64,000 nucleotides of DNA from Pelagibacterales bacterium MED-G40 (lineage in GTDB: Bacteria > Pseudomonadota > Alphaproteobacteria > Pelagibacterales > Pelagibacteraceae). Below the pieces are notes generated by a model. It did no database searches. It worked only from the letters and a program-made list of their open reading frames with translations, and was not told the origin of the DNA. A program made the position numbers and the translations under genes. Positions 6,763 to 29,983 of the stretch are shown here, one piece after another; position 1 is the stretch's first letter, and each line of letters begins with the position of its first letter. The stretch lies in NCBI GenBank assembly GCA_002457515.1, contig NTJN01000001.1, forward strand, positions 62,001 to 126,000, written 5' to 3'.

Positions 6763-8289
6763 TTATAAATTCAATTCTTTACGTACAACTGAATTACTTA
6801 ATAAAACATTTTCAAATTCATCTAATGAATTTTGATCAATAATTTGTTCAAGAACTTTAGTATAAGTTTTTCCAGTTTGAGCATAATTATCTAAAGTGTC
6901 AGTCAGAGAAATACCTTTTATTGGTTTATTCCTTTTTCTCAATGTATATCTTTTTTCTCTAAATTTAGAATAACCCTTATGAGTGTTCAAATTATTCTTA
7001 TAAGCTTTTACTGATGCTCTTAAAATTGGAAATTTTAAAATCTTATGGCCTTGATGTTGTCCTTTGTCTAATGGTTCAATGCCTTGTCCAGTCCAAGTCC
7101 ACTGACCGAAGATTGCATTTCCTTCTAAGGCAAATCTCGATGTCCCCCAACCACTTTCTTTAGCTGCTTGAGCAAGAGCAATTGAAATCGGAATTATATC
7201 CATTCTCTTTTTAAGCTCATTAATGTCTGAATTTTTTACCTTATACTCTCTAAGTTTTTGCCTTAACCAAGATTTTTCTTTCTCTGAAGTAATTTTCTTT
7301 GATTGTATTTTTTTAAGTTTTAATCTGTCATCAGTAATTTTTTCGTTCTCAGCAACAACCAAAGGTAAAACAATCTTTATAAAAGTATCTTTTTTTAATT
7401 TACTGTCTTTAATTTCATCTAAATCTTTTGGAAATTGAGTAAAATATATTGGCTTAACTCTTTTCTCATTTCTTACTTTTCTCAAGTCATATTGCACGTC
7501 ATTAAACAAACTTAAAACTGTCTCTGTTTTAAGGTTTAAATTTGGTAAAACAAATTCCTTAACTGAATTAGTATTATTCTGTTTTTTAGGTTGAACTTTA
7601 GCCTGTTTTTGCTTCGGCTTAGTTACTGGTTCATTTTTTTTCTCTTCTGCTAATTTCTTATTAACAGTTTTTTCTTTTATTGTTTTTTTCTCAATCTCTT
7701 TATCTTGAAGAGTCTCAGTATAAAAATTAATAAAAGTATCTTTTCCAAAATATCCTGCAACCCCAAATAAAAATAGAAAAGCAGAAATTAAAATTACTGA
7801 TACTAGTTGATTTACTTTTTTTGTTTCAATATCAAAATTATAAATTCCATTAAAAAACTTGAGGGTCGTTTTGCTTACAAATGAACAGAAGTTTAATATT
7901 GCTCTACCTGTTCCAAAAATTATATTTACTATAGTCTTTGCCACATAAGAAAAAAAATTTAAAATTGAATTATTAGTATCTAAAAAGAAATTAATAATTG
8001 ACTTTTTTATTGATGCAAAAAATTTGTAAATGGAGTTTGATACAGAAGAGAAAAAATTTCCAATTCTATTTCCTGTTGAGAATATAGGTTTGGAAATTTT
8101 TTTTGCTTGAATTTCAAATATATTTTTCTTGAGTTCCGTTGGTATTGGAACTTTATTTTTTTTCAAAATATGCTCTATTTGAGCAGTTGTTAAATACTTT
8201 TTATTTCTTTCGTATACTTGTATCTCAGCAATTTTATATATTTCTGAAAGTTCTAACAGTTTATCTCTATAGCTTAAGTTTTTTTTCAT
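6763..8289 (-). CDS. Bax-like glucosaminidase-domain protein with N-terminal 11-residue repeat region and one TM segment
   Basis: C-terminal ISIALAQAAKESGWGTSRFALEGNAIFGQW matches the glucosaminidase/Bax family; TM QLVSVILISAFLFLFGVAGYF. Confidence 0.85.
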   Translation of the reverse strand: MKKNLSYRDKLLELSEIYKIAEIQVYERNKKYLTTAQIEHILKKNKVPIPTELKKNIFEIQAKKISKPIFSTGNRIGNFFSSVSNSIYKFFASIKKSIINFFLDTNNSILNFFSYVAKTIVNIIFGTGRAILNFCSFVSKTTLKFFNGIYNFDIETKKVNQLVSVILISAFLFLFGVAGYFGKDTFINFYTETLQDKEIEKKTIKEKTVNKKLAEEKKNEPVTKPKQKQAKVQPKKQNNTNSVKEFVLPNLNLKTETVLSLFNDVQYDLRKVRNEKRVKPIYFTQFPKDLDEIKDSKLKKDTFIKIVLPLVVAENEKITDDRLKLKKIQSKKITSEKEKSWLRQKLREYKVKNSDINELKKRMDIIPISIALAQAAKESGWGTSRFALEGNAIFGQWTWTGQGIEPLDKGQHQGHKILKFPILRASVKAYKNNLNTHKGYSKFREKRYTLRKRNKPIKGISLTDTLDNYAQTGKTYTKVLEQIIDQNSLDEFENVLLSNSVVRKELNL

Positions 8290-8292
8290 TTT

Positions 8293-8838
8293 TTAATTTG
8301 CTTCTACTGATTTTACTTCTTCTACATAATGACAAAGTAGATTTTGTACCCCTTGTTTTAAAGTCATTAAAGAACTTGGACAACCAGAACAGCTCCCTTG
8401 CAACTCAACTGTTACTACACCGTTTTTAAAAGATTTAAATTTTATATCTCCACCATCTCTTGCAACTGCGGGTCTTATTTTCGTATCTAAAACTTCTTGA
8501 ATTTTTTTGATAACTTCGTCAACTTTTTCCCCTGAAATTTTTTTAGTAATTGATTCTAAAATCGGCTTTTTATTCTTCTCAAAATAGTCATTAATATACG
8601 ATACTACGGTTGGCTTAAGAGCATCCCATGAAATACTATTGCTTTTTTTAACTGTTAAGAAGTTTTGCGCTAATAAAATTAATTCAACTCCTTCTACTTC
8701 AAGTAATTTTTTTATAAAAATATTATTTATTTTATCTTTATCCTTTTTTTGAAATTCTTCCATACCAACAGAGGATATAACGTTCTCCGATAAAAATTTT
8801 AGAGAGTCCGGATTAGGTGTTTGTTCTGTGTGTATCAT
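8293..8838 (-). CDS. NifU/Nfu-type Fe-S cluster scaffold
   Basis: N-terminal MIHTEQTPNPDSLKF, C-terminal GSCSGCPSS motif. Confidence 0.93.
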   Translation of the reverse strand: MIHTEQTPNPDSLKFLSENVISSVGMEEFQKKDKDKINNIFIKKLLEVEGVELILLAQNFLTVKKSNSISWDALKPTVVSYINDYFEKNKKPILESITKKISGEKVDEVIKKIQEVLDTKIRPAVARDGGDIKFKSFKNGVVTVELQGSCSGCPSSLMTLKQGVQNLLCHYVEEVKSVEAN

Positions 8839-8850
8839 GCGTAATGTATA

Positions 8851-9855
8851 TTACAATAATCCCACTATTTCACGTATCTTTTTTAGGTTCTCCTCAGCTT
8901 TTTTTAAAGCTTTTTCTCTGCCTTTATTCAAAACTTGTTCTAGATAGGCTTTATCATCGATTAATTCCTTAATTTTTTTACCTACGGGGCAAATTGTTGC
9001 AACTAAACTATCTGAAAGTTTATTCTTCAGAAAAGAAAATTCTTTACCTTCCATTTCAGAAAGAATTTTTTGAATTGGAGTTTTTTTTAAGTCAGCATAA
9101 ATCTTTAATAGGTTAAGTGCTTCAGGTCTCTTTTCTAATTCTTTTTCCTGACCAGGTATTGGCGAAGAGTCTGTCTTAGCTTTTTTTATTTTTTTTACTA
9201 TTTCGTCGGCACTATCTTTCAAATCAATTCGAGAATAATCTGACTCTTCAGATTTGCTCATTTTTTTCGTTCCGTCTCTTAAACTCATCACTCTTGAAAT
9301 ATTTTTTTGAATTAAGGGTTCTGGTATGGGGAAAAAATTTTCTGATTTAAAATCTTTGTTAAATTTTTGTGCTACATCTCTACACAATTCCAAATGTTGT
9401 TTTTGATCTGCCCCAACTGGTACATGTGTTGCTTTATAAAGTAGTATATCTGCAGCCATAAGATTCGGGTAAATGTATAAACCAACACTTGCTTTTTCTT
9501 TATCTGATCCAGCTTTATCTTTAAATTGTGTCATCCTATTCAACCAACCAATTCTTGAGACGCAATTAAGTATCCATGCTAACTCTGCATGACCGCTTAC
9601 TGATGATTGGTTAAATATAATATTTTTATTCTCATCTAAACCTATTGCTAAAAAAGCTGCAGTTGTTTCAAAGATATTTTGTTTAAGTTCTTTAGGATTT
9701 TGAAAAGTTGTAATCGCATGTAGATCGACTACACAAAATATACATTCCATTTCTTTCTGAAGCGATACAAAGTTTGTGAGAGCTCCTAAATAATTTCCTA
9801 AATGAAGATTGCCAGTTGGTTGAACACCTGAAAAAGCTAATTTTTTAATACTCAT
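8851..9855 (-). CDS. trpS: Tryptophanyl-tRNA synthetase
   Basis: SGVQPTGNLHLGNYLGAL, KKMSKS. Confidence 0.97.
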   Translation of the reverse strand: MSIKKLAFSGVQPTGNLHLGNYLGALTNFVSLQKEMECIFCVVDLHAITTFQNPKELKQNIFETTAAFLAIGLDENKNIIFNQSSVSGHAELAWILNCVSRIGWLNRMTQFKDKAGSDKEKASVGLYIYPNLMAADILLYKATHVPVGADQKQHLELCRDVAQKFNKDFKSENFFPIPEPLIQKNISRVMSLRDGTKKMSKSEESDYSRIDLKDSADEIVKKIKKAKTDSSPIPGQEKELEKRPEALNLLKIYADLKKTPIQKILSEMEGKEFSFLKNKLSDSLVATICPVGKKIKELIDDKAYLEQVLNKGREKALKKAEENLKKIREIVGLL

Positions 9856-9856
9856 T

Positions 9857-11383
9857 TTAAAACGCCCTATAATTTTTAAATTTTAATAAACCAAATAAAT
9901 AACAATTAATTAAATATATCATTGCCACTAAACCTATCATAAATACAAGATAAATTGACTTATAAATATTATCATAAGCAAGTTTATCCTCAAAAAAACT
10001 TAATCCATAATACAAGACAAAAGACATAATAAATGTGCAAAATATAATCTTAAAGAAATTGTAAAGTGGTAAATTTTCAAAGAACAAAAATTTAGATTTG
10101 CCTAATAAAATAAAATATAAAATAACTGCTAACCATGTTGAGATTGAAGTAGCAATCGGGATAATGATAAAACCAATTTTTTTAAATAATAAAAGACTTA
10201 TTGCAATATTCAAAACAACACTAAACAATGATAGGTAAAATGGTGTCTTAGTATTATCTCTCGCAAAGTAAAAGTTAGAAAGAACTTTTATTAATGCAAA
10301 AGCCGGAATTCCATAACCAAAATATTTAAGTGCTTTAGCTGTCATAGTAACATCAGAATTTGTAAATGAACCATAACCAAATAAAGCGTTTATTATTTCC
10401 TCTGATGCTAAAATTAATCCTAAACTTGCTGGCACAGATAAAAGTAAACAAAGTTCTATAGATTTGTTCTGTATATTTTTTACATTCCCAAATTTTTTTA
10501 ATTTTAAACTTTTAGATAATACAGGAAGTGAAACTGTTCCGACTGCGATTCCTGCAATAGCCAAATTAATTTGATATATTCTATCTGCATAATATAAATA
10601 GGAAACAGCTCCAGCTTCAAAGGAAGCAATAATAGTACCAACTAAAATATTTATCTGAGTAACTCCAGATGAAAAAATACTTGGTAAAAGTTTTTTTAGA
10701 AAAAATTGAACTTTAGAACTAATATTAGTTTTTAAAAAAAGAGACGGCTTATAATATTTTTTGGTAAAGACTAATAAAAAAAATAATTGAATTATTCCTG
10801 CAAAAGTGACTCCGTAAGATAAATTTTTTACAAAATCTAGTTTAAATAGGTAAGAAATAAAAAGACTTATAATTAAAATTATATTTAAAATAATTGGGGC
10901 AGCTGCAGCTGCGGCAAATTTATTATTTGAATTCAAAACCCCTGAAAAAAAGGATGATATACTTACAAATAATAAAAATGGAAATGTTATTCTTGTTAAT
11001 TCAACGGCTAAGTTGAATTTTGATGCATCATTATAAAAACCTGGAGCAAGTAAATAGACTAAAAATGGAGTAAAAATTTCAACAATAAAAACTATACCCA
11101 ACAAAATTAAAATTAAAAGATTTAATACTTCATCCGCAAACTTTTTGCCTTTTAACTTACTTTTCGCTTTCTCTGCAGTGTAACTTGGTATAAACGCTGC
11201 ATTAAAAGTTCCTTCGGCAAATAATCTTCTAAATGTATTGGGAATACGGAACGCCACAAAAAAGACATCAGCTAAAAAAGAGGCGCCAATAAATATGGCA
11301 ATTAATATATCCCTTAAATATCCTAATATTCTGCTAATTAGTGTATAAAAACTAAAAACTGATGTTGAAGATAATAAATTCAT
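9857..11383 (-). CDS. murJ: Lipid II flippase MurJ/MviN
   Basis: Multi-TM; SRILGYLRDILIA, FRIPNTFRRLFAEGTFNAAFIP. Confidence 0.95.
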   Translation of the reverse strand: MNLLSSTSVFSFYTLISRILGYLRDILIAIFIGASFLADVFFVAFRIPNTFRRLFAEGTFNAAFIPSYTAEKAKSKLKGKKFADEVLNLLILILLGIVFIVEIFTPFLVYLLAPGFYNDASKFNLAVELTRITFPFLLFVSISSFFSGVLNSNNKFAAAAAAPIILNIILIISLFISYLFKLDFVKNLSYGVTFAGIIQLFFLLVFTKKYYKPSLFLKTNISSKVQFFLKKLLPSIFSSGVTQINILVGTIIASFEAGAVSYLYYADRIYQINLAIAGIAVGTVSLPVLSKSLKLKKFGNVKNIQNKSIELCLLLSVPASLGLILASEEIINALFGYGSFTNSDVTMTAKALKYFGYGIPAFALIKVLSNFYFARDNTKTPFYLSLFSVVLNIAISLLLFKKIGFIIIPIATSISTWLAVILYFILLGKSKFLFFENLPLYNFFKIIFCTFIMSFVLYYGLSFFEDKLAYDNIYKSIYLVFMIGLVAMIYLINCYLFGLLKFKNYRAF

Positions 11384-27448: not shown

Positions 27449-29983
27449 ATGGACAAGGTAAATTTTAATAATATTGAAGAAAAATGGCAAAAGATTTGGG
27501 ATAAAACAAATCTTTATAGATCAAACAAAGAAAAAAAGTTTTATTGCTTGGAAATGTTTCCATATCCATCAGGAAAAATTCACATGGGCCATGTTAGAAA
27601 TTATACAATCGGAGATGTGATAGCTAGATATAAATACCTAAATTCCTTTAATGTTTTACATCCAATGGGTTGGGACTCCTTTGGTTTGCCTGCAGAAAAT
27701 GCAGCACGTGAGAATAATCTTAATCCAAAAATTTGGACGCAAAAAAATATTGCTGAAATGAAAAGACAACTTAAGATGCTTGGATTATCAATTGATTGGA
27801 ATTTAGAAATTTCAACTTGTGATGAAAGCTATTATAAGCATCAGCAAGAAATATTTATAGACTTATATAATAAAGGTTTCATAAGTAGAAAAGAAAATTA
27901 TGTTAATTGGGATCCTGTTGAAAAAACCGTTCTTGCAAATGAGCAAGTTATAAACGGTCGTGGTTGGAGATCGGATGCACTGGTTGAAAGAAAAAAACTT
28001 TCTCAGTGGTTCTTTAATATTTCTAAGTTTTCAAATGAACTTCTAGAAGATTTAGAAAAACTTAATAATTGGCCAGAGAAAGTAAAGTTGATGCAAAAAA
28101 ATTGGATTGGAAAGTCAATAGGTTGTGAAATTGATTTTGAAACAACTGAAGCTAAAAAATCCAATATCAAAGTATTTACAACTCGTCCCGATACTATATT
28201 TGGAGCCTCTTTTGTCGCTATCTCTGCTGATCATCCTTTCTGTGAGAAATTTAAGAACGAAAAAACTTTTATTGATTTTAAGAATGAATGCTTAAAAGTA
28301 GGAACAACTGAAGAGGCGCTAGCTATAGCTGAAAAAATTGGCTATAAAACTAAATCATTCGTTAAACATCCTTTCGTAAAGAATAAATTATTACCAATAT
28401 TTGTAGCAAATTTCGTTTTAATGGACTATGGAACTGGTGCAATATTTGGATGTCCTGCACATGATCAGAGAGACATGGATTTTGCAAAAAAATATAAATT
28501 AGATGTTTTAGAAGTAGTATCACCAGATGGAAAAAAGCACAGTGATTTCGATAAAAGAAGCGAAGCTTTTACTGAGGACGGTGTCTTAGTAAATTCAGAA
28601 TTTTTAGATGGTTTAAAAGTAGAGGGCGCAAAAAATAAGATTATAAAGGAAATAGAAAAAAAAAATATAGGAAAAAAAAAAATTACATTTCGTTTAAAAG
28701 ATTGGGGAATATCGAGACAAAGATATTGGGGATGTCCAATTCCAATGATTTATTTGGAAGATGGAAGTATTGTTCCAGTAGAAAAAGATGAACTTCCTAT
28801 TAAACTTCCTGAGAATATAGATCTAAGCACCTCTGGAAATCCTTTAGAGAATCATAAGGAATGGAAAAAAACAAAGCATAAAAAAACAGGAAAGCCAGCG
28901 ACAAGGGAAACAGATACTTTGGATACTTTTGTTGATTCATCTTGGTATTTTATGAGATTTTGTTCACCAAAATCTAAAGAAAGACCATTTGAAATAGATG
29001 ACTTAAATTACTGGATGCCTGTAGATCAATATATAGGAGGAATTGAACACGCAATTCTTCATTTACTTTACTCAAGATTTTTTATGAAAGCTTTAAAGGC
29101 TAATAACAGCTCTATTAAATACAGTGAGCCTTTTAAAGGATTGTTTACGCAAGGAATGGTTTGTCATGAAACATATAAAGATAACAAAGGGAGTTGGTTA
29201 TCTCCTGATGAAATTGAAAAAGGATCAAACGATCAAACTGTTAAAAAAACTGATAAATCAAAAATCACTATAGGTCCGTCTGAGGCGATGTCAAAATCTA
29301 AAAAGAATATAATAGACCCCGAGAGTATGATTAAAATTTATGGTGCGGACGCGGTGAGATGGTTTATCTTATCTGATAGCCCTCCAGAAAAAGACATTCA
29401 ATGGTCAAATCAAGGGGTAACTGCTTCTTATAAATTTTTACAAAAAATTTGGAGTTTGAATAGCAAAGTTATTGAACGTAAAAATCAAGAAATATCAAAG
29501 GAAATGGAAAAAAAAATTGAAAGCCAATTTCATAAACATTTACACAAAATTACAGGCTCTATTGAAAATTTCCAAATCAATGTTGCGGTAGCAAATGTTC
29601 ATGAAATTTATAACTTAATTAACGAACACATCTCAAAACCAATTTCAAATGAACTGCTAAGAAAAATTTTGATAGATTTTATGAAAATTTTAATACCTTT
29701 TATACCTCATGTAGCTAGTGAATCTTTAGAAAAATTAGGAGAAAAAAATACTGATAAATGGCCTATTATAAAAGATGATTTGATGCAAAATCTATTAATA
29801 AAAGTAGCAATACAAATTAATGGAAAAACAAGAGAAATTATAGAAGCTAAACAAAATTTACCTGAAAAAGATCTAATTAAATTAAGTAAAGATAGTGCTA
29901 AAGTTAACAAGCATTTACAAAATAAAAATGTACAAAAGATAATTTTTGTAAAAAATAAAATATTAAATTATTTAACAGATTAA
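27449..29983 (+). CDS. leuS: Leucyl-tRNA synthetase
   Basis: [27 protein letters not shown]. Confidence 0.98.

Follow-up and report, generated by a model that had tools for sequence, protein, structure and literature searches.

A Bax-like wall hydrolase encoded in a 64,000-nucleotide stretch of SAR11 DNA (the window, meaning the whole stretch that was analysed) carries seven 11-residue repeats ahead of its transmembrane (TM) helix. The locus raises the question of what so long a periodic segment does in such an enzyme, and where it came from. Genome searches set the window in one SAR11 genus, of which 100 distinct homologues were read from incomplete single-cell assemblies. Named contigs of close relatives belong to Pelagibacteraceae single-cell genomes and to SAR11 cluster bacterium PRT-SC02, in agreement with the SAR11 origin proposed by the first-pass annotation.

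Domain layout of the Bax-like protein

The gene, its parts and its upstream neighbours are collected in Table 1. The product had been called a Bax-like glucosaminidase from its letters, and the profile searches agree: the PF01832 match (E=4.8e-16) reaches 60 bits against a Pfam gathering cut-off of 30.2, and the NCBIfam protein bax equivalog, NF007681, aligns over its model positions 66-266 to residues 289-487 with 125.1 bits, under its cut-off of 193. The glutamate of the ESGWG motif, E378, which we take to be the catalytic glutamate of GH73, is unchanged in 36/36 homologues. In the AF2 model the C-terminal region mostly has confidence values of ∼85-95, which drop around residues 381-420, and the linker is disordered across residues 189-249.

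Table 1. Features of the Bax-like gene and its upstream neighbours, in window positions
Feature	Position	Strand	Remarks
Bax-like GH73 glucosaminidase gene	6763..8289	-	508 aa, ATG start; MKKxLSYR start conserved in the genus
N-terminal three-helix microdomain, residues 1-50	8140..8289	-	AF2 pLDDT ∼90; presumably cytoplasmic
Amphipathic helical segment, residues ∼57-150	7840..8121	-	one phase, ∼98.5 degrees per residue; AF2 helices
Seven 11-residue repeats (xxxxxI.NFF.), residues 71-147	7849..8079	-	
Single TM helix, residues ∼158-182	7744..7818	-	hydropathy minimum 162-180; AF2 helix 156-186
K/P/E-rich disordered linker, residues ∼187-252	7534..7731	-	AF2 pLDDT 31-45; presumably periplasmic
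GH73 glucosaminidase domain, residues 356-488	6826..7224	-	PF01832; invariant E378 in AAKESGWGTSR
Upstream genes nfuA 8293-8838, trpS 8851-9855, murJ 9857-11383	8293..11383	-	names from sequence

A single TM helix behind the repeats, also proposed earlier, was recovered at residues ∼160-182 by a crude Hessa-type hydropathy scale (one TM, residues 162-180), used in the analysis beside a HeliQuest-type scale, and as an AF2 helix from residue 156. Because the protein has one TM helix and a wall-cutting C-terminus, we infer that its N-terminal half lies in the cytoplasm. The microdomain at the start of that half has the consensus SYRDKLLELxxIYKxxEIxxYxxxxKxLTxxQIEHILKKNKVPIP within residues 1-50, with Y7, R8, L14, I17, Y18, L33, T34, E39, L42, K44, N45, I49 and P50 invariant.

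A Foldseek search with the full model returned no match below E 0.001, and the PDB sequence search no chain at E<=10. The best match in a PDB profile search of the N-terminus had an E of 0.045, which was taken as chance; BAR-domain and CorA matches were weak, at E 0.2 and above. Pfam matches to single members were weak, inconsistent and under the curated cut-offs where these were shown, DUF3231 appearing in 27/75 members with a best E of 4.6e-4.

Some members differ in the linker or in the integrity of the gene. One protein (L025, genome G029) has an 11-residue unit, KKPEPKIKKET, in ∼six copies behind the TM helix, and a 604-aa protein (L172, G268) has a lysine/proline repeat with a KKPEAKKEI-type unit in its periplasmic linker. 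In G019 an apparent frameshift in the linker splits the bax-like gene (L036); its N-terminal and C-terminal portions overlap but are read in different frames, and one match contains 2 TAA. The contig ends inside the Bax-like gene in four assemblies (G010, G012, G023 and G024); gene fission was rejected there, since both halves lie at contig ends and the splits are assembly breaks.

The 11-residue period in the window protein and in the genus

The division of the repeat stretch into seven consecutive 11-residue units, as first described, proved exact in both coordinates and split. BLOSUM autocorrelation compared with shuffles gave z scores of 7.0, 8.2 and 6.1 at lags of 11, 22 and 33 residues, with nothing of comparable size at other lags, and its maximum was reached by 0/2000 shuffles. 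Across these 77 residues the hydrophobic moment is largest at 98-98.5 degrees per residue, with values of 0.482 at 98.18 degrees (=3x360/11) and 0.384 at 100 degrees; at 102.86 degrees, the heptad angle, it falls to 0.010, which rejects a heptad (left-handed) coiled coil. The periodic region is longer than the seven repeats and covers residues ∼57-150, with a local phase of 231-256 degrees that stays within ∼25 degrees along 89 residues.

Since shuffles preserve composition and ignore the amphipathicity common to real helices, a comparison with real proteins was added. By amphipathic moment the segment ranks 1st of the 61 ORFs in the window, and 1st again (0.504 vs a mean of 0.286, sd 0.055) among 809 ORFs, each 100 aa or longer, from stretches that make up ∼0.8 Mb of the genome's 0.91 Mb. 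The genome-wide runner-up, with 0.448 at an angle of 94.5 degrees, is a 77-residue stretch covering residues 662-738 of an 844-aa ORF at 27449-29980 (+) in the window.

At the DNA level, nucleotide identity at lags of 33, 66 and 99 nt equals that of a resampled-codon control (P 0.48, 0.45 and 0.29), and TRF found no array at the Bax-like locus; a recent DNA tandem duplication was rejected on both counts. Because there is no excess of nucleotide identity over the codon-redrawn control, the repeat pattern is either old or held by protein-level selection.

The 11/3 period recurs in the homologues. All 100 distinct members of the genus carry a segment of 63-108 aa with a moment peak at 98-100.5 degrees (98-99 degrees in 97, 99.5 in two and 100.5 in one), and spectral power at 98.5 degrees averages ∼20 times background. 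The xxxxxI.NFF consensus put forward by the first-pass annotation is present in the window protein; across the genus it is confined to that protein and its nearest relative, most homologues being K/E-rich or G/T-rich (some G/T/K-rich) and free of the IxNFF motif. The period, not the IxNFF motif, is the common feature of the genus. The 86-type homologues are K/E-rich and share a conserved proline, and 7-22% of the residues in their hydrophobic sectors are charged.

Segment length varies across the genus by steps that keep the phase. The spacing between two fixed anchors is 73-74, 78, 97-98, 100-101, 115 or 119 residues, and the differences of 22, 18 and 4 residues each preserve helical phase within ∼35 degrees; plain tandem duplications of 22 and 18 residues are visible in two members. 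In close pairs, pN/pS is lowest for the hydrolase (0.05) and the microdomain (0.08), followed by the TM helix (0.15), the amphipathic helix (0.16) and the linker (0.18); these ratios rest on saturating synonymous distances and are usable as ranks. Purifying selection on the helix is comparable to that on the TM helix.

Orthologues with and without the helix

Members of the genus share the order murJ-trpS-nfuA-bax. In the sister genera and an outgroup family at least nfuA-bax is kept, often with trpS or a convergent deacetylase, and this shared gene order identifies the bax-like genes of the genus, its sister genera and the outgroup as orthologues. The other Pelagibacteraceae orthologues resemble the window protein in synteny, TM helix, linker and GH73 domain, and several genera share the microdomain; they differ in that the long helix is absent, and in many of the sister genera the TM helix comes almost directly after the microdomain. 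Two of the sampled genera (g6 and g8) and the outgroup family have no microdomain; the outgroups are without both parts. Two proteins of genus g8 (L178 and L179) have other sequence in place of the microdomain, which in L178 includes an amphipathic-looking stretch of the IKFIKFIDIF type.

In a tree of the hydrolase domain, the helix-bearing proteins form one clade (24/24, support 0.985) nested among helix-less ones. The simplest account is that the helix was gained once, at the base of the genus. The sister genera and the tree place the predicted long helix as an insertion in the orthologues of one SAR11 genus. Orthologues with and without the helix at the same locus constitute a compact natural experiment, which would allow in-plane membrane anchoring to be tested as a control of a wall hydrolase.

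A putative membrane anchor and its alternatives

On balance, the segment probably forms a continuous amphipathic helix on the cytoplasmic leaflet that serves as membrane anchor and spacer. An ancestral single-pass GH73 wall hydrolase would have had a small cytosolic N-terminal microdomain, and one SAR11 genus would have gained ∼65-110 residues between this microdomain and the TM helix. Running without a break for ∼13 nm, the gained segment would be a long amphipathic alpha helix (11/3-18/5 type) that lies in the inner membrane's cytoplasmic leaflet beside the TM helix. Its most likely role would be that of a strong in-plane anchor and spacer, which would press the microdomain flat to the membrane, fix its distance from the TM helix and limit how the hydrolase moves or is oriented, the latter reaching the wall via the K/P-rich periplasmic linker. 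The repeat with its period and continuous phase, its conservation, its restriction to the genus, the synteny and the purifying selection are observed; membrane binding, the cytoplasmic side and the anchoring role are what the sequence suggests.

The chemistry of the helix is consistent with this proposal. In the window clade the hydrophobic face has zero charged residues in its central sectors, the polar face is K/N and the net charge is +8, which together with the phase continuity favours a long helix extending straight along the anionic inner leaflet. The hydrophobic face is F/I-rich with adjacent FF and has ∼1.56 bulky residues per turn, a density from which, together with the charged polar sectors, strong and unselective membrane binding is predicted. 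Ordinary TM helices were rejected for the segment, whose best 19-residue window scores +5.0 vs -1.2 for the true TM helix, ∼6 units worse on the crude Hessa-type scale. The three points on which the original claim of an amphipathic helix hung came out in its favour, as the period is present in homologues, the helical wheel of the window clade has a clear hydrophobic face, and the repeats contain no TM-like stretch. The in-phase indels of 22, 18 and 4 residues and the period shared by 100/100 homologues also count for an anchor helix, as do the AF2 helices, the TM-like strength of purifying selection, the placement as an insertion and the conserved synteny. Weighing against it is the modest confidence of AF2, which predicts helices at residues 57-103 and 108-150 (pLDDT ∼46-81) with a break at 104-107 and leaves the relative orientation of the segment undefined (pTM 0.31), as well as the proline and the charged sectors of the 86-type homologues.

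The period alone fits lipid binding and a right-handed (hendecad) bundle alike, 11/3 being also the hendecad coiled-coil period. A right-handed coiled coil or antiparallel bundle through which the hydrolase would oligomerise on the cytoplasmic side, with the hydrophobic face packed on protein instead of lipid, is unlikely, though the likeliest of the alternatives. It would suit the 11/3 period of the segment and the K/E-rich 86-type homologues, which resemble soluble helices more, and the two AF2 helices, of 47 and 43 residues, are long enough for a hairpin. However, the phase runs unbroken across the predicted turn, a continuity that a flexible hairpin would not need; the F/I-rich face with its adjacent FF is broad, where a hendecad coiled coil would oligomerise through a narrow core; the window clade is too hydrophobic for a soluble rod, and the PDB profile matches stay at chance level.

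Sensing of membrane curvature or lipid packing, coupled to wall cleavage, had been suggested by the first-pass annotation and appears distinctly improbable. Synuclein- and perilipin-type 11-mer helices can sense lipid surfaces (PMC5889406, PMC6164224), and the window-clade segment, with 34% S/T/N/G, resembles ALPS motifs in being an amphipathic helix with many Ser/Thr/Gly/Asn. ALPS motifs, however, have an uncharged S/T/G polar face and bulky residues at a density of ∼one per turn, and where these are paired the helices bind irrespective of curvature (PMC6164224). The SAR11 segment lies on the wrong side of both properties, with a charged (K) polar face (38-69% charged polar sectors) and a dense hydrophobic face, and it was rejected as an ALPS motif. 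Its chemistry also varies widely among close relatives, so that no particular sensing chemistry is conserved. Non-functional spacer expansion by neutral drift, kept soluble or membrane-compatible, is very unlikely: the segment varies in length and evolves faster than the catalytic domain, but its period and amphipathicity are unchanged in 100/100 homologues despite residue divergence, its indels are in phase, and it is under selection like that on the TM helix.

There is a slim chance that a cytosolic surface helix of the synuclein type responds to the geometry or lipid state of the membrane and controls the place or time at which the periplasmic hydrolase acts. If it did, a Min-less, minimal marine bacterium would have gained a way to place wall cleavage. 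MinC (PF03775) was found in 0/60 Pelagibacteraceae genomes and MreB occurs in nearly all of the 60; with no contrast across the family, a genus-specific morphology difference via MreB/MinC was rejected.

The most familiar long lipid-binding helices with 11-mer repeats are those of lipid-coat proteins in eukaryotes. Here such a helix would have entered a wall hydrolase in one lineage of highly abundant marine bacteria and been conserved there, with in-phase duplications adjusting its length. With the Escherichia coli protein Bax family/GH73 (PF01832; NF007681) the SAR11 protein has in common the catalytic domain with its ESGWG glutamate, whereas its long cytosolic N-terminus with microdomain and helix is omitted from the NF007681 model. 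The 11-mer repeats of perilipin 4, synuclein and apolipoproteins fold as 3-11 helices (PMC5889406), a class into which the segment falls by its 11-residue repeat and its angular period near 98.2 degrees. No kinship with synuclein, perilipin or apolipoprotein appeared among the PDB sequence (E<=10) or profile matches (E 0.045 or worse). Unlike the perilipins, alpha-synuclein and apolipoproteins, the SAR11 segment is bacterial and fused to a TM helix and a wall hydrolase, and it is rich in bulky F/I, whereas perilipin 4 is described as weakly hydrophobic and without bulky residues (PMC8064757). With the shared 11-residue repeat, 11/3 period and long single amphipathic helix (PMC5889406), the 3-11 helices of perilipin 4, synuclein and apolipoproteins are the closest functional analogy to the proposed membrane helix.
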